From: Gemmataceae bacterium
GTDB taxonomy: Bacteria; Planctomycetota; Planctomycetia; Gemmatales; Gemmataceae
DNA length: 64,000 bases
Direction: 5' to 3'
Assembly (NCBI GenBank): GCA_019636445.1
Contig: JAHBXO010000008.1
Location: 62,001 to 126,000, forward strand
Each line of letters opens with the position of its first letter. Position 1 is the stretch's first letter. Position numbers and translations under genes: made by a program. The notes below the pieces were generated by a model. The model ran no database searches. It was not told the origin of the DNA and saw nothing but the letters and a program-made list of their open reading frames with translations. This document shows, in pieces, positions 9,278-16,837 of the stretch.

Positions 9278-10612
9278 CTAAACTTTCAACTCGTCCGGCA
9301 TCTCGCCGCTGTAGCTGGCCCACAGCGCGTCCACCGGGTGGGCGCACCACACGTCGGGCACCACGCTCTTCAAATGCCGGGCGATCTGCATCAGGCAACC
9401 GACGTTGCCGATGAATACCGCCTTCGCGCCGGTGGTGCGGATGTTCTCCGCCTTGCGGTCGCCGAGTTTCCCGGCCATCTCCGGCTGCGTCAGGTTGTAG
9501 CTGCCGGCCGCGCCGCAGCAGAGTTCGCTCTCGCCCAGCGGCACCAGCTTCATGCCCGGAATCAGTTCCAGCAGGCTCCGCGGCTGCTTCTGGATCTGCT
9601 GCGCGTGCCGGAGGTGGCAGGCGTCGTGGTATGTCGCGGTGATATTCAAGGGGTGCGTCGGTTTCACCGGGCCGAGGTCGTACAGGAACTCGCTGATGTC
9701 GCGGACCTTGGAATTGAACCGGACCGCGGCCTCTTCGGCCGGGTGGCCGTGCATCATGTGCGCATAGTCCTTGAGCATCGCCCCGCAGCCGGCGGCGTTC
9801 GTCACGATCGCGTCGAGATCGTCCGGCATGCCGTTTCCGAACCCGAAGATCTCGCAGTTCTTCGCGGCGAGTTCGCGCGCCTGGGGTTCCATCGCGCTGT
9901 GATAGTGCAGGGCACCGCAGCACTGCTGGGCACGGGGAATCCAGACTTCGACGCCGTTCTTCTGGAGGACGCGGGCGGTATTGAGCTGGGTGCCGGGATA
10001 GAGCGCGTCCGCGACGCAGCCGAGGAAGAGGCCGACGCGGGCGCGGCGTTTTCCCTCGGCCGGCAGCACTTCGGGCAGGCTCCCGTAGTGCGGCTTCAGT
10101 TTCGGCAGCATCGCCTTCATGCGGCGCAAGGACGGCGGTAGCAGCTTCGTCAAGCCGACGGTTTCGGCGAGCCAGTCCAGACCGGAGATTTGTGCGAGCC
10201 GCGCCGGCGCGAGCGCGAGCCGGGTGCGCAGACGCGAGGGGAAGATGCGAAAGAGCATGAAGCGCTGAAGCGCGTTCAGGTTCGCGGCGGACCGGCCCGG
10301 CTCCTTCTCTTCCATGTGGACGCGGAACGGCTCGATGAGCTTGCCGTACTGCACGCCGGACGGGCAGGCGGTTTCGCAGGCCCGGCAGTTCAGGCAGAGA
10401 TCGAGGTGCCCTTTCACGGTGTCGTCGAGTTTCAGGGCGCCGTCGATCACCTGACGCATGAGATAGATGCGCCCGCGCGGCGAATCGGCCTCGTTCCCGG
10501 TCTCGACGTAAGTGGGGCAGCTCGCGGTACAAAGGCCGCAGTGCACGCAATCGAGAACGAGTTCGTAATCGAGATTCGGTTTTCCGTCGGCGAGCGGCAG
10601 TGCGGTGGCCAT
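9278..10612 (-). CDS. glcF: Glycolate oxidase iron-sulfur subunit GlcF
   Basis: A 444-residue two-cluster Fe-S protein of the GlcF/CCG family, which moves electrons from glycolate (or lactate) oxidation to the quinone pool. The N-terminal half has two 4Fe-4S motifs, CVHCGLCTASCP and CLNCRACETACP. The C-terminal half has two Cys-rich CCG repeats, QQCCGALHYH and ELCCGAAGSYN. Length fits the family (about 400-440). The FAD subunits GlcD and GlcE are not next to it; the neighbours are lepB and a secreted hydrolase-like gene on the same strand. GlcF is the best call, but a generic CCG-domain heterodisulfide-type protein cannot be excluded. Confidence 0.85.
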   Translation of the reverse strand: MATALPLADGKPNLDYELVLDCVHCGLCTASCPTYVETGNEADSPRGRIYLMRQVIDGALKLDDTVKGHLDLCLNCRACETACPSGVQYGKLIEPFRVHMEEKEPGRSAANLNALQRFMLFRIFPSRLRTRLALAPARLAQISGLDWLAETVGLTKLLPPSLRRMKAMLPKLKPHYGSLPEVLPAEGKRRARVGLFLGCVADALYPGTQLNTARVLQKNGVEVWIPRAQQCCGALHYHSAMEPQARELAAKNCEIFGFGNGMPDDLDAIVTNAAGCGAMLKDYAHMMHGHPAEEAAVRFNSKVRDISEFLYDLGPVKPTHPLNITATYHDACHLRHAQQIQKQPRSLLELIPGMKLVPLGESELCCGAAGSYNLTQPEMAGKLGDRKAENIRTTGAKAVFIGNVGCLMQIARHLKSVVPDVWCAHPVDALWASYSGEMPDELKV

Positions 10613-10692
10613 GGAGCGTATCGGTGGGTGCGGTGGGCGTGTTCGGGAATTGTAGGGAATGATCGACCGATGGCGGTGGGACAGGCCCTCCG

Positions 10693-13566
10693 CTATCGGG
10701 TCGCCATCTCTTCGATGCGCACGTCGTCGAAGTAGGCTTCGCCGAAGCCGGTGAGAGCGAACGTGACGGCGAGCTTCCCGTTCGCGGGCACCTGTCGGTA
10801 CAGGTAGTACTGCCGCCAGCCGCCGCCGTAAAGGCGCACGGAGAGCGGTTCGCTGCCGGCGCTATCGAAGACGAGCGCGCCGTCGGCGGTCGCGCCGACG
10901 TTCGCCTTGGCCCAGAAACCGATCCGCGCCCAACTCCCCGGCGGCAGGTCGACCGCGGGCGTATCCACCGCCAGCGACACACGCTCGAGCGCGACCGGGG
11001 GACGATAGTCTTTCGCGGCGTTCGCCGGCCGCTTTGGCGTGACTTCGAGTTTGAGGCAGTGTTTGCCGAGCGACTGGCCGGACGCGGCACCGGCGCGAAT
11101 CCGGTCGTCCACGGCGACGATGGCGGCGACCGGCGTCGCGGGATCGAGGTGCGTCTCGCGTGCGGTCCAACCGGGCAGCGAGCCGACGGCGGCACCGCGG
11201 GCGGGCGGATCCTGGCTGAGTTCGAAGGTGCCGTTGCGGAGGACGTTGCCGCCGGGCCGCGCGGACCGCATGCGGGCGGCGAGTTCCCAGTGCTGGGGCA
11301 GGGTGTAGAAGCCGATGGCGTAGGGGCTGGCGGTCGGCGCGCTCAGGCCGGCGGTCGCGTTGCGCCAGTGTTCGCGCATGATGATGCGCAGCGGTCGGAG
11401 TGCCGCGCGGGCATCGCGATAGGACACATCGGGTTGGTTGTTGGCCATCGCCTTGGCGGAGCGTTCCAGCGATTGCCGGGCCTGAGTGAACAGGTCGTCC
11501 GCGCCGCGGACGGGCGGGGCGACGCCGGCGAGCTGGTCGTGCACGCCGCGGACTTTCTCATGGATCTCGCGCGCCTGTTCGAGGGCGAGCTGGGCGGCGC
11601 GTTTCGCGGAGCCGTTGCGGATGTTGTCCTGCCAGCGGACGACGAGGCCATCGGGCGCGAGGTCGTTGGTGAAGACGACGGCGGCGGTGAGGTCGAATTT
11701 GGGAATCGTGATTTCGACGCCGCCGGGGACGGCGCGGACGCCGCCGGTGGAGCGCAGGTTCTCGAAGGTCGCGGGGGTGAGCAGCCACGGGTCCGCGCCG
11801 TCGGGCACGAGGGGCACGACGATTTTCAGGCCGTCGACGGCGCCCTGATCGGGGCAGTGCTGCGAGCCGTTACCGATCCAGACCGGCATCGCGACGATCC
11901 CCTTTTTGCCGCGGATGACCGCGGCCTTCACGGAGGGGTGCGACGTGTTCACCCACATCGTCTTTTCGTCGTCGGCGCCGAAGAGGACCGGTTCGAGCAG
12001 TTCGATCTCGGTGTTGAGCAAGTAGAGTTCGATCATCCGGTCGCGGCCGATCGCGCCGTATTCGGGCGAGAGGAATTGATCCGTCCAGAAACCGAGGCCG
12101 CGATAGCCGGACGCGAGGCCGAGGTAGGTGAGTAGTCGGATCTGTTCCGGCTGCGGGCCGAGGGGGAAATCGAGTTTCTCCGGGTTCGGCCGACCGGTGG
12201 CGAGGGCCAGGTACCAGTCGGGCATGTGGGTCTGCACCCAGGTCCACATCAGTTTGCCGGGCGAGGTGAGGGCGCGGCGTTGGAGGAGCCATTCGCGGTA
12301 TTTGTCGAGTTCGAGGCTGGTGAAGAGCGGCCAGCGATGGGAGCCGATGACGTCGAGGTACTCGGAGTAGGCGGAGTAGCCGTCCCAGAGGTCCACGGCA
12401 CGGGGCCGGCGGGGATCGTATTCGCGGAGGATGTCGGCGGTGCGCGCGACCTGGCGGAGTTGTTCGGTGGTGCGGCCGGCGCCGAGGTCCCACATCAACA
12501 CGCCGTCGCCGGAGCGGAAGCGGCGGAAGTGTTCGACCATGCGGTCGGCGTCGCGGCCGACGTTGGCGGCCGTGTCGGTCCCCACTTCACCCGTGCCGAG
12601 CACCGGAACTTCCGCGATGACCATGAACGAATGGTTCACCACCGCGTCGTCCACCAGGGCCGCGTCCACGTTGGCCGGAAAGGCGATCGCGTTGAAGTTG
12701 AAGTCGCGCAGCCCCTTGAGCGATTGCCCCGCGTGGCGGACGGCGCGCAGGAAGAACGGCCGCTTGTCGATGAGGATGCGCCCGGCCACGAACTCGACGG
12801 CATACGGATGCGCGACCTCGGCCGGCAGAGTCCCCGGGATCGTGGAATTCTTGGCGCGGCTGACCGGACGGCCGATCCCCTTCAGCGGCTTCCGGGGGTC
12901 CGGCGTGCACGGGCCGATATCCAGATCGTCGATCCAGACTTCGCTCGGTCCGGGGCCCGAATAGACGTTCAGCACCAACCGGTCGATATAGGCGTCGGTC
13001 GGGTCGATCTCGCGGCCGAGTTGCGCCCGCAGCACCGGCAGCACTTTCTTGAGCGCATCCGCGGGTTTGCCCAGCGTCAGCCGGTGCCACGAGCGCACGC
13101 GTTCCTCCGGGTAGGTATCGCCGACGATCAGCGTCGTCAGCATCGCCTCCGGCGTCTTCGGGTCGCGTTCCTTCGGCAGCACCACACGGGCTCGCAGTTG
13201 GATGCCAGCGCGGAAGCTTTTCACCCACACGCTCGCCGTCGAGTCTTCGCCGGTGGTCGGTTTGATCGGACAGGGGGGCGTGTCGTAGACGTAATGCACG
13301 AATTCCGAATCGGCCTTGCCCGGGTTCGGCTGGCATTCGATCTTCAGATATTCGGACGACGGCGCGTTGAAATAGGAATTCGCGACGATGCGATGGTCCT
13401 TCTCTTCGACCTTTTGATTCGTGTCGGCGAGGACCCACGCCGGTTCGCGTCCGGCGAATCCATCCCGGTGGACCTGCCCGCGCGTCGCGTCCGGGGCCTG
13501 CGCGGCCACCCACGCCGCCAGACCGATGGTCAGCCCCGCGATTCCGACAACGACGCACCTGCGCAT
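10693..13566 (-). CDS. Secreted TIM-barrel (beta-galactosidase-like) hypothetical protein
   Basis: About 957 residues. The ATG at 13564-13566 was chosen since it begins a signal peptide (MRRCVVVGIAGLTIGLAAWV); the longer frame to 13860 would run through the opposite-strand small basic protein gene. An N-terminal beta-sandwich ends in EVWIDDLDIG. A middle region (VEFVAGRILIDKRPFFLRAV, then a barrel-like alternation) resembles the start of glycoside hydrolases of the beta-galactosidase fold. A C-terminal carbohydrate-binding-like sandwich ends in AYFDDVRIEEM. I cannot point to paired catalytic acids, so enzymatic activity is not claimed. It is transcribed away from 13745. Confidence 0.6.
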   Translation of the reverse strand: MRRCVVVGIAGLTIGLAAWVAAQAPDATRGQVHRDGFAGREPAWVLADTNQKVEEKDHRIVANSYFNAPSSEYLKIECQPNPGKADSEFVHYVYDTPPCPIKPTTGEDSTASVWVKSFRAGIQLRARVVLPKERDPKTPEAMLTTLIVGDTYPEERVRSWHRLTLGKPADALKKVLPVLRAQLGREIDPTDAYIDRLVLNVYSGPGPSEVWIDDLDIGPCTPDPRKPLKGIGRPVSRAKNSTIPGTLPAEVAHPYAVEFVAGRILIDKRPFFLRAVRHAGQSLKGLRDFNFNAIAFPANVDAALVDDAVVNHSFMVIAEVPVLGTGEVGTDTAANVGRDADRMVEHFRRFRSGDGVLMWDLGAGRTTEQLRQVARTADILREYDPRRPRAVDLWDGYSAYSEYLDVIGSHRWPLFTSLELDKYREWLLQRRALTSPGKLMWTWVQTHMPDWYLALATGRPNPEKLDFPLGPQPEQIRLLTYLGLASGYRGLGFWTDQFLSPEYGAIGRDRMIELYLLNTEIELLEPVLFGADDEKTMWVNTSHPSVKAAVIRGKKGIVAMPVWIGNGSQHCPDQGAVDGLKIVVPLVPDGADPWLLTPATFENLRSTGGVRAVPGGVEITIPKFDLTAAVVFTNDLAPDGLVVRWQDNIRNGSAKRAAQLALEQAREIHEKVRGVHDQLAGVAPPVRGADDLFTQARQSLERSAKAMANNQPDVSYRDARAALRPLRIIMREHWRNATAGLSAPTASPYAIGFYTLPQHWELAARMRSARPGGNVLRNGTFELSQDPPARGAAVGSLPGWTARETHLDPATPVAAIVAVDDRIRAGAASGQSLGKHCLKLEVTPKRPANAAKDYRPPVALERVSLAVDTPAVDLPPGSWARIGFWAKANVGATADGALVFDSAGSEPLSVRLYGGGWRQYYLYRQVPANGKLAVTFALTGFGEAYFDDVRIEEMATR

Positions 13567-14065: not shown

Positions 14066-15352
14066 ATGCCTTTCATCCCCATCGCCCTCGGCAGCAACCT
14101 CGGCGACCGGCGCGGCTTCCTCGACGCCGCGATCCGCCGGCTCCGCGCCGAACCGGGAATCCGCGTCGTCGCCGTGTCCCCCTACTACGACACGCCCCCC
14201 GTCGGCGGCACGCTCGAGTCCGAAAACTACCTCAACGCCGCCGCCCTGCTCGAAACCGAACTGCCGCCCCAGACCGTCCTCCGAACCTTGCTGGAAATCG
14301 AACTCCAGTTCGGGCGACAACGATCCGCGACCGCACGCAGTGCCGGCCTGTACGACCCCCGCACACTCGACCTCGATCTGTTGCTCTATGGCGAACAAAT
14401 CTGGGATTCGCCCGAATTGATCCTGCCCCACCCGCGCATGCACGAACGGTCGTTCGTCCTGAAGCCGCTCGCCGACATCGCGCCGGACATGATTCATCCG
14501 GTCCTGCGGCGAACCGTGGCGAACCTGCTCGCGGATCGACCGGCCGAGGAACGCGACGCCGTCCGCGTGCCCGCGCAGCCCGCCGGCGCGGAACGCCGTC
14601 AGTTCGAGCACGTCCGCGTCCTCGTCACGGGGTCCACCAGCGGCATCGGCCGCGCCATCGCCACCGCCTTCGCCGAACGCGGCGCCGACGTCATCGTCCA
14701 CGGCTACCGCTCGCGCGAGACCGCCGACATGGTCGCCCAGCAACTCCGCATCCACGGCGGCGACTGCCGCGCCGTCCTCGCCGACCTTCGCCAACCCTCC
14801 GAAGTCGACCGCCTCGCCAAGGAATCCTGGGACGTGCTCGGCGACGGCCTCGGCGTGCTCGTCTGCAACGCCGGCGCCGACACCCTGACCGGTCCCGGGG
14901 CCGCGATGTCCTTCGACGGCAAGCTCGACGCCCTGTTGCAAGTGGACCTGAAAGCGACGATGCGGCTCGCCCGCGCCGTCGGCGACAAGATGAAGCTCAT
15001 GGGTCGCGGCGTCATCCTCACCATGGGCTGGGACCAGGCCGAGACGGGCATGGAGGGCGACAGCGGTCAACTCTTCGCCGCCGTGAAGGGCGCGATCATG
15101 GCGTTCTCGCGCAGCCTCGCCGTCAGCCTCGCACCCCACGTGCGCGTCAACTGCATCGCGCCCGGCTGGATCCGCACCGCCTGGGGCGAGACCGCCACGC
15201 CGGCCTGGCAGGAGCGCGTCCGCCGCGAAACTCCCCAAAAGGTCTGGGGACTGCCCGACGACGTCGCCGCCGCCGCCGCCTGGCTCGCGTCGCCCGGGGC
15301 ATCCTTCATCACCGGCCAGACACTCGCCGTCAACGGCGGCGCCATCCGCTGA
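14066..15352 (+). CDS. folK: HPPK (FolK) fused to a short-chain dehydrogenase/reductase domain
   Basis: A 428-residue two-domain protein. Residues 1-160 are 6-hydroxymethyl-7,8-dihydropterin pyrophosphokinase (folate synthesis), with IALGSNLGDR, NYLNAAALLET, LYDPRTLDLDLLLYG and LILPHPRMHERSFVL. After a short linker, residues 181-428 are an SDR domain with the NAD(P) motif TGSTSGIGRA and VCNAG. The catalytic YxxxK is Phe337-AAV-Lys341, and the usual Ser position is occupied by GWDQ. Pteridine reductases (FolM/PTR1) are SDRs, so a reductase role in the same pathway is an inference, but loss of the Tyr questions ordinary activity. The rhodanese gene starts 7 bp after the stop. Confidence 0.85.
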   Translation: MPFIPIALGSNLGDRRGFLDAAIRRLRAEPGIRVVAVSPYYDTPPVGGTLESENYLNAAALLETELPPQTVLRTLLEIELQFGRQRSATARSAGLYDPRTLDLDLLLYGEQIWDSPELILPHPRMHERSFVLKPLADIAPDMIHPVLRRTVANLLADRPAEERDAVRVPAQPAGAERRQFEHVRVLVTGSTSGIGRAIATAFAERGADVIVHGYRSRETADMVAQQLRIHGGDCRAVLADLRQPSEVDRLAKESWDVLGDGLGVLVCNAGADTLTGPGAAMSFDGKLDALLQVDLKATMRLARAVGDKMKLMGRGVILTMGWDQAETGMEGDSGQLFAAVKGAIMAFSRSLAVSLAPHVRVNCIAPGWIRTAWGETATPAWQERVRRETPQKVWGLPDDVAAAAAWLASPGASFITGQTLAVNGGAIR

Positions 15353-15359
15353 TTCCCAT

Positions 15360-15686
15360 ATGATCCCGCAAATCCACCCGAACGACGTGAAAGCGAAGCT
15401 CGACGCCGGCGAACCGGTCGTCCTGCTCGACGTGCGCCAGCCGAACGAATACGCGTACTGCCGACTGGAACCGAGCGAGCACATTCCGCTGCACGAATTG
15501 CCGGGGCGATGGGAGGAACTGGACGTGCCGGCCGACGCGCTCGTCGTGGTCTACTGCCACCACGGCGTCCGCAGCCTGAGCGGCGCCGCGATCCTGATGC
15601 AGGCCGGCATCAAAAACGTCGCCTCGATGTCCGGCGGCATCGAGGCGTGGAGCCTGCTCGTCGATCCGACCGTGCGGCGCTATTGA
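15360..15686 (+). CDS. Single-domain rhodanese-like sulfurtransferase
   Basis: A 108-residue protein with one rhodanese domain: LLDVRQPNEYAYC near the start, active-site loop CHHGVRS with the catalytic Cys, and SGGIEAWS near the end. Such proteins carry sulfane sulfur (thiosulfate or persulfide to an acceptor) in the cytoplasm. The gene starts 7 bp after the folK-SDR stop, so the two are probably one transcript, though no functional link is obvious. Its 3' end overlaps the converging C45 gene by 7 bp. No Shine-Dalgarno is visible before the ATG. Confidence 0.85.
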   Translation: MIPQIHPNDVKAKLDAGEPVVLLDVRQPNEYAYCRLEPSEHIPLHELPGRWEELDVPADALVVVYCHHGVRSLSGAAILMQAGIKNVASMSGGIEAWSLLVDPTVRRY

Positions 15687-16837
15687 GCCTTCGTCGATTG
15701 TTCGCCCTTGAACAGCTTGCCCAGGTCCAGCGTCGTCGCCTTCATCACCGTCGCGCTCTTCACCGTATCGCCGAGCTTCAGGTGCAGCATCCGCGCCTTC
15801 GGCTCGAAGACCATCGCCTGCAGCGTGAACTTCCCGGCGTTCACCGCGTGCAGGCTCTGGAAGACATCCTCGATTCCGAGTTTCTCCTCGGTGCCTTGCA
15901 GCGCCTCCAGCTTCGGCAGCCGGTCGCACTTCTGGCCGATCCCCAATTCGTCCGTGCAGAAGTGGTTCGTGCAGCAGCAGACATCGTTTTTCGCCTTCCG
16001 CGCCACGATCGTCTTCGGCGTGATCTCGAACACCGCCCCGCCCTTCGCGTCGCACGCCGTCATGCACGAGGTCGACGTCCGTTCCGCCTTCCGTAACAGC
16101 GCCTCGGCCTCCGCAACGGTCGAGCATTCCTCCAGCACGCGCCGGAACAGTGCCAATGTCGGCGTCCCCTTCCAGTTGAAGCTCGGCTTGTCCTTCGATT
16201 GCTTCAGGTGGATCTCGTTGATCGTCACCGCCAGGCCGTCCTCGTTCATCCCGCTCACGCACCCCGACAGCGGGCTGATGGTGATCGTCGCGAACGCCTT
16301 CTTCCCCTTCGGCTTCCAGACCACCACCAGGGTGTGCCGGTCGATCCCCTTCGAATTCATCCAGTCGAAGTTCCGCGCGAAGATCGTATTGCCGGTGGCG
16401 CTGCGCCCCGGCTCCACGATCACCGTCGAGCAACCCATCCCGCTCGACAAGTCGTACACCGTGTTCGCGAAGTAGAGCAGGTCCGGCTCACGGCCCGCCG
16501 CCTTGGCCGCCGCGTCCATCTCGGTCAGGTGGTCCTTCGGCAGGTTCTTCTTCAGTTGCTTCGAGAGCACCTTGATCCCCTCGAAGGCCTCCTCCTGCTT
16601 CGTGTCCTTGAGGAACTGCGCCAGCAGGGCGTCGATACCCGGCGCGTTCTTGATGGCGAGCACGCCGAACTGCTCGCCGATCTCTTCCGGCGCGCCCTGC
16701 ACGGTGAGCACCGGCAGCCCCGCGACGTGTGCAAGCTTGCCGCCCTTGTGCGTGGCTTCGGGGAACGTGGGCGCTTGCGCGAGTGCGGCCGGAACGACGG
16801 CCAGCAGAAGCGCGAGGACCAGGAATCGGCGGAGCAT
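15680..16837 (-). CDS. Secreted C45-type autoproteolytic acyltransferase/hydrolase
   Basis: A 385-residue protein with signal peptide MLRRFLVLALLLAVVPAALA. It resembles the Ntn-hydrolase family C45 (isopenicillin N acyltransferase-like). The probable processing site and nucleophile is Cys136 in SSGMGCSTV, followed by ARNFDW and a conserved NEDGLAVTINEIH. If active, it would cut itself before Cys136 and hydrolyse or transfer an acyl group from an amide. Substrate unknown. The DVCCCTNHFC cluster at about 288-297 is unusual and could form disulfides. It converges on the rhodanese gene with a 7-bp overlap. Confidence 0.8.
   Translation of the reverse strand: MLRRFLVLALLLAVVPAALAQAPTFPEATHKGGKLAHVAGLPVLTVQGAPEEIGEQFGVLAIKNAPGIDALLAQFLKDTKQEEAFEGIKVLSKQLKKNLPKDHLTEMDAAAKAAGREPDLLYFANTVYDLSSGMGCSTVIVEPGRSATGNTIFARNFDWMNSKGIDRHTLVVVWKPKGKKAFATITISPLSGCVSGMNEDGLAVTINEIHLKQSKDKPSFNWKGTPTLALFRRVLEECSTVAEAEALLRKAERTSTSCMTACDAKGGAVFEITPKTIVARKAKNDVCCCTNHFCTDELGIGQKCDRLPKLEALQGTEEKLGIEDVFQSLHAVNAGKFTLQAMVFEPKARMLHLKLGDTVKSATVMKATTLDLGKLFKGEQSTKAQ

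Follow-up and report, generated by a model that had tools for sequence, protein, structure and literature searches.

A FolK-fused short-chain dehydrogenase with phenylalanine at the catalytic tyrosine position is a candidate pterin reductase of tetrahydromethanopterin biosynthesis in Planctomycetota

Introduction

Two unrelated forms of dihydromethanopterin reductase have been described: the DHFR-like DmrA and the flavin-dependent DmrX/AfpA/DmrB (PMC6193120). DmrA was identified in Methylobacterium and, in 2016, AfpA was reported as not recognized in planctomycete genomes; how planctomycetes complete tetrahydromethanopterin (H4MPT) is a stated gap in the same report (PMC5020050). The methylene-H4MPT dehydrogenase step is carried out in planctomycetes by MtdC (PMC3505017). 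In the folate branch, a TGX3RXG motif marks the short-chain dehydrogenases (SDRs) FolM and PTR1, and known DHFR is often missing in organisms with ThyX (PMC1971073). A literature search, with most subscription papers beyond its reach, found no paper that had already connected an SDR with the H4MPT pathway.

A 64,000-nucleotide stretch of a Gemmataceae contig (hereafter the window) encodes an HPPK (FolK) domain joined to an SDR domain. The original prediction, made from the sequence alone, held that the SDR domain has an intact cofactor loop and lacks the catalytic Tyr and Ser, compared it with the FolM and PTR1 pteridine reductases of the folate pathway, and proposed either a different chemistry or a regulatory NAD(P)-binding role.

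Domain organization of the fusion protein

The fusion protein is encoded by a 428-amino acid open reading frame running from ATG to stop. The following features were assigned:

14066..15352, + strand: HPPK-SDR fusion open reading frame
14066..14545, + strand: HPPK (FolK) domain, residues 1-160 (PF01288, TIGR01498)
14546..14605, + strand: interdomain linker, residues 161-180, without family match and with low pLDDT
14606..15349, + strand: SDR domain without catalytic Tyr, residues 181-428 (PF13561, AlphaFold)
14627..14650, + strand: TGSTSGIG dinucleotide-binding loop of TGX3GXG form, residues 188-195 (145-homologue alignment)
14870..14893, + strand: AGADTLTG family signature, residues 269-276 (homologues and gammaproteobacterial sister group)
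14945..14947, + strand: Asp294 at the Asn position of the catalytic tetrad (Asp in 145/145)
15026..15037, + strand: GWDQ replacing the catalytic Ser motif, residues 321-324 (GWD in 145/145, Q in 142/145)
15074..15076, + strand: Phe337, aligned with the catalytic Tyr (Phe in 143/145, Tyr in 2/145)
15086..15088, + strand: Lys341, the retained catalytic/cofactor Lys (Lys in 145/145)

The N-terminal half matched Pfam HPPK (PF01288) over residues 6-140 (1.9e-36; 125.4 bits against a cut-off of 25.7) and NCBIfam folK (TIGR01498) with 120.2 bits against a cut-off of 54.1. The SDR half scored above the cut-offs of both PF00106 and PF13561 (adh_short_C2; residues 185-425, 4.2e-44), and the family search returned no match of the fusion protein to families other than HPPK and SDR/Rossmann. 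In the window genome the fusion protein was the one HPPK match. The metal-binding pair Asp102 and Asp104 of the DLDLL motif was invariant among 22 fused proteins, as were several HPPK Arg, His, and Asn residues. All HPPK tests applied identify the fusion protein as an HPPK.

AlphaFold, run on alignments that combined the window protein and related sequences, returned two folded domains for the full-length protein (pLDDT 88.7, pTM 0.77), with pLDDT falling to about 63 across linker residues 171-180. Modeling of the SDR domain, which had been recommended with the original prediction, gave a confident structure (pLDDT 94.5). The HPPK-SDR fusion is real: both family matches are present and relatives carry homologous full-length fusions.

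Active-site residues and their conservation

Conservation was counted over 145 distinct planctomycete homologue sequences. G189, G193, I194, and G195 of the cofactor loop were present in all 145. Within the family signature A269 and G270 were likewise invariant, and D272, L274, and T275 were each found in 144 of 145 sequences. By alignment, the Asn-Ser-Tyr-Lys tetrad of ordinary SDRs is replaced by Asp, Trp-Asp, Phe, and Lys; Asp294 aligns with the Asn of most other SDRs. Assignment of the Ser position is ambiguous, as a small insertion lies between beta-5 and the Phe, and either Trp322 or Asp323 may occupy the Ser site. The predicted loop and the predicted loss of Tyr and Ser were thus borne out.

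The YxxxK motif reads FxxxK in 143 homologues and YxxxK in two. An earlier, smaller alignment had Phe in all fused and stand-alone sequences. A search for Tyr-bearing homologues, which might have marked Phe337 as a sequencing or lineage oddity, recovered only two sequences with Tyr, L104 (genome G170; 10279-11019) and L162 (8001-8750), and that explanation was ruled out by Phe in the remaining sequences. Phe337 is characteristic of the family. GWDQ is intact in both Tyr carriers, and the Trp-Asp pair, Asp294, and Lys are invariant throughout; from these alignments the protein therefore looks able to do without the Tyr hydroxyl, but not without the Trp-Asp, Asp294, and Lys.

FabG and other classical SDRs ranked at the top of Foldseek and VIA-align comparisons, which did not indicate a substrate; the lists did not include PTR1, which is no evidence either way. 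FabG-type classical SDRs share the fold (about 30% identity, Z about 34) but have Asn-Ser-Tyr-Lys where the window SDR has Asp-(Trp-Asp)-Phe-Lys, and the window protein fell short of the FabG model TIGR01830 (147.4 bits against a cut-off of 297.75). Fold and cofactor loop make the domain an SDR, yet it departs from the classical type in the defining catalytic residues.

Distribution of the fusion and of the stand-alone SDR

The fusion was sought in 59 genomes. It was found full length, at 46-98% identity, in nearly every sampled genome of the window's order, comprising most genomes of the window's family (f1) and seven of seven from a second, sister family of that order (f2); residue 337 aligned as Phe throughout. 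The fusion may have a single origin. Four f1 drafts (G008, G015, G018, and G025) had neither the fusion nor any HPPK match, so the fusion gene as a whole is probably absent from these assemblies. Among the remaining orders of the class, the orthologue of the SDR half stands alone and is 46-61% identical to the window SDR, while other SDRs of those genomes are about 35% identical to it.

Gene neighborhoods of the SDR

Stand-alone SDR copies adjoin genes of H4MPT synthesis and use. Neighbors assigned by family search were Mch, Ftr, Fhc subunit C, CitG-like, PTPS, PCD, DUF447, RFAP synthase, and TIGR03123, the "H4MPT-linked C1 transfer pathway protein". Further neighbors were a RimK-type ATP-grasp protein nearest MptN, a PabB/TrpE-type protein, and a TIGR00284 dihydropteroate-synthase-like protein; the names MptN, TIGR00284, MfnF, and PabB are approximate, as these matches were under curated cut-offs. 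At least one H4MPT-specific gene lay inside the fetched stretch in 44 of 84 stand-alone loci, about half being without one, and the TIGR00284-like gene was within 700 bp of the SDR in 40 of the 84. Among fused lineages, H4MPT-type neighbors (MfnB-, MfnE-, and MfnF-like) occurred in 5 of 18 loci examined. The window contains no further gene of the H4MPT neighbor set besides the fusion.

Outside Planctomycetia, loci L101-L104 form a compact apparent operon of mch, ATP-grasp, CitG-like, PTPS, and SDR genes, sometimes with added PCD, dihydropteroate-synthase-like, and pabB genes. This operon is a candidate gene set for H4MPT biosynthesis.

Co-occurrence with Mch in Planctomycetota

The SDR was called across 292 Planctomycetota genomes by a wide gap in match score (1e-85 or better for the family, 1e-52 or weaker for other SDRs); one partial match (G315, 3e-55) was counted as present. 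In total, 41 genomes carried the SDR and all 41 carried Mch (p = 5e-48), while Mch without the SDR was found in only two genomes, G212 and G314. Because 35 of the 41 SDR genomes belong to one class, these events are non-independent, and fewer independent ones underlie the data than the p-values suggest. Outside the class, Mch was present in six of six SDR genomes and in 2 of 249 others (p = 8e-11), and in four of the six the SDR and Mch both lay within 2.4-3.6 kb. Inside the class, both genomes of family f8 had neither gene.

The two exceptions, G212 (L107, G212:C49) and G314 (L108, G314:C1), belong to family f61, and both have a DHFR-family gene. These two genomes must rely on something other than the SDR; given the DHFR-family gene, a DmrA-like enzyme may serve there.

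Gammaproteobacterial sister group

A scan of contigs recovered two proteins from gammaproteobacterial MAGs, L198 and L201, with AGADILTG, VDL, [ST]WD, and MFAAVK motifs and Phe at the Tyr position; the WD of GWDQ is retained in this group. In a quick tree the planctomycete and gammaproteobacterial SDRs formed a single clade that excluded other SDRs (SH-aLRT 99). Members of the sister group (L198:8001-8744, L201:8001-8765, and L211-L220) had [STA]WDLA together with Phe, and were frequently located near an adenine phosphoribosyltransferase-like gene.

Among 53 genomes of one gammaproteobacterial order the SDR and Mch were each found in 42; 39 genomes had both and 8 had neither, so that the two agreed in 47 of 53 (p = 2.5e-5), repeating the link outside the Planctomycetota. 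In the gammaproteobacterial genomes read, the SDR lay outside the H4MPT cluster. The clusters carried Fae and an Mpt_N methylene-H4MPT dehydrogenase, so the SDR is not needed for the dehydrogenase step; no AfpA was found in these clusters in about 20 kb read from a few genomes.

Proposed function

Strong evidence from the neighborhoods and from co-occurrence with Mch places the SDR in the H4MPT pathway. Context fixes the pathway and not the step, since another reduction in H4MPT biosynthesis, such as that of ribose to ribitol, would give the same pattern. On balance the SDR domain appears to reduce a pterin with NAD(P)H during H4MPT biosynthesis, and its most likely identity is the dihydromethanopterin reductase of the last step. 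We infer this exact step because AfpA is reported as unrecognized in planctomycetes, the window genome has no DHFR-family match, the gene is linked to H4MPT, and FolK is its fusion partner, which together make the SDR a natural candidate. The suggestion that the HPPK-fused reductase acts on a pterin is supported by these observations.

In the proposed mechanism the FolK half would supply the pterin diphosphate precursor, the SDR being fused to FolK in the window's order. NAD(P)H, bound by the Rossmann loop and Lys341, would deliver a hydride to reduce the C6=N5 bond of the dihydropterin. Asp294 and the invariant Trp-Asp pair would keep the pterin in place, with water or an Asp giving the proton to N5. 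Unlike carbonyl reduction, reduction of C6=N5 would require no Tyr acid. The hydride step and the pterin hold are proposed from what is generally known of pterin reductases.

Against the two described forms, the proposed enzyme would have the reaction and the H4MPT pathway in common. DmrA of Methylobacterium extorquens also uses NADPH without flavin (PMC6193120), but is a DHFR homologue, whereas the window SDR has an unrelated fold; no DHFR-family match was found in the fusion protein or in the window genome. AfpA/DmrB and DmrX differ in being FMN proteins of another family. The cut-off of TIGR02700 was reached in none of 41 genomes; matches below it occurred in nearly every genome, mostly over a short C-terminal stretch, and these are read as the ferredoxin-like part.

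Whether the family forms a third, non-homologous class of dihydromethanopterin reductase is evenly poised. Such a class would consist of SDRs with Tyr, Ser, and Asn changed to Phe, Trp-Asp, and Asp, common to Planctomycetota and a gammaproteobacterial order, and forming a FolK-fused bifunctional enzyme in one planctomycete order. If so, dihydromethanopterin reduction arose three or more times on folds unrelated to one another, and the classical SDR fold was rebuilt for dihydropterin reduction without its usual defining catalytic Tyr. The SDR provides one testable candidate gene for the planctomycete gap, and the sister group allows testing in gammaproteobacteria too.

Alternative explanations

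Most relatives lack FolA, which gave rise to the idea that the SDR stands in for it as a dihydrofolate reductase: 45 of 59 genomes, the window genome included, had no match to PF00186 (DHFR family), so something must reduce dihydrofolate in them, and the FolK fusion would fit. We consider this improbable. The SDR and DHFR were uncorrelated over the 292 Planctomycetota genomes (two-by-two counts 12/29/94/157, p = 0.38), and FolA instead followed the type of thymidylate synthase, occurring mostly in genomes without ThyX (11/2/1/45 among the 59, p = 3e-9). The SDR was kept in 11 genomes with FolA matches, and G052 and G319, without H4MPT and without FolA, also lacked the SDR. A side activity on dihydrofolate is possible. 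The folate branch suggested by the original prediction was not upheld, since the gene follows H4MPT genes rather than FolA status. Kinship with FolM/PTR1 was not upheld either. FolM and PTR1 resemble the window SDR in fold, pterin pathway context, and NAD(P)H use, but the window SDR has TGX3GXG in place of TGX3RXG (G193 being invariant) and no catalytic Tyr, and the pteridine reductase/TmpR models were missed (NF006598, 123 bits against 288; NF012208, 120 against 325).

The SDR might act instead at another reduction of H4MPT biosynthesis, for example where the ribofuranosyl moiety becomes the ribitol chain, or at a reductive step around the dihydropteroate-synthase-like enzyme. SDRs commonly use sugars and polyols, and the usual immediate neighbor is the TIGR00284 protein, near whose step the SDR would act. 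This reading is unlikely, though it keeps an appreciable chance: the SDR is joined to a pterin enzyme, the lost Tyr acid suits imine reduction better than keto-sugar chemistry, and the gap reported in planctomycetes is the dihydromethanopterin reductase (PMC5020050). Catalytic death, with a role left only in NAD(P) sensing or in structure, would account for changes at three of the four classical catalytic positions and is quite improbable. The changes are uniform rather than decayed (145/145 at three positions), the gene is independent in most lineages, and the Lys and cofactor loop are invariant. The regulatory domain offered by the original prediction is accordingly doubtful, the same substitutions being uniform in more than 140 homologues and recurring in the gammaproteobacterial sister group. 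Co-occurrence with and proximity to Mch could also point to a methylene-H4MPT dehydrogenase or other enzyme of one-carbon transfer outside biosynthesis. That role is highly improbable, because the step is already covered by MtdC in planctomycetes (PMC3505017) and by the Mpt_N dehydrogenase in the gammaproteobacterial cluster, and the closest neighbors of the SDR are biosynthetic.

FolA and flanking genes

Among genomes G000-G058, FolA (PF00186) was almost confined to ThyX-negative genomes, and planctomycetes with ThyX had no PF00186 match. An apparent complementarity of SDR and FolA among Mch genomes without the SDR (G015, G018, G212, and G314, each with FolA) was set aside: G015 and G018 are ThyX-negative and, like G008 and G025, without any HPPK match, and these assemblies probably lack the fusion gene altogether.

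In the window, a rhodanese-domain gene (15360-15686, + strand) begins 8 bases past the fusion stop and adjoins the fusion only in the closest relatives. A gene on the opposite strand (15680-16837, - strand) encodes a C45-family autoproteolytic acyltransferase/hydrolase, which scored above the NF040521 cut-off.
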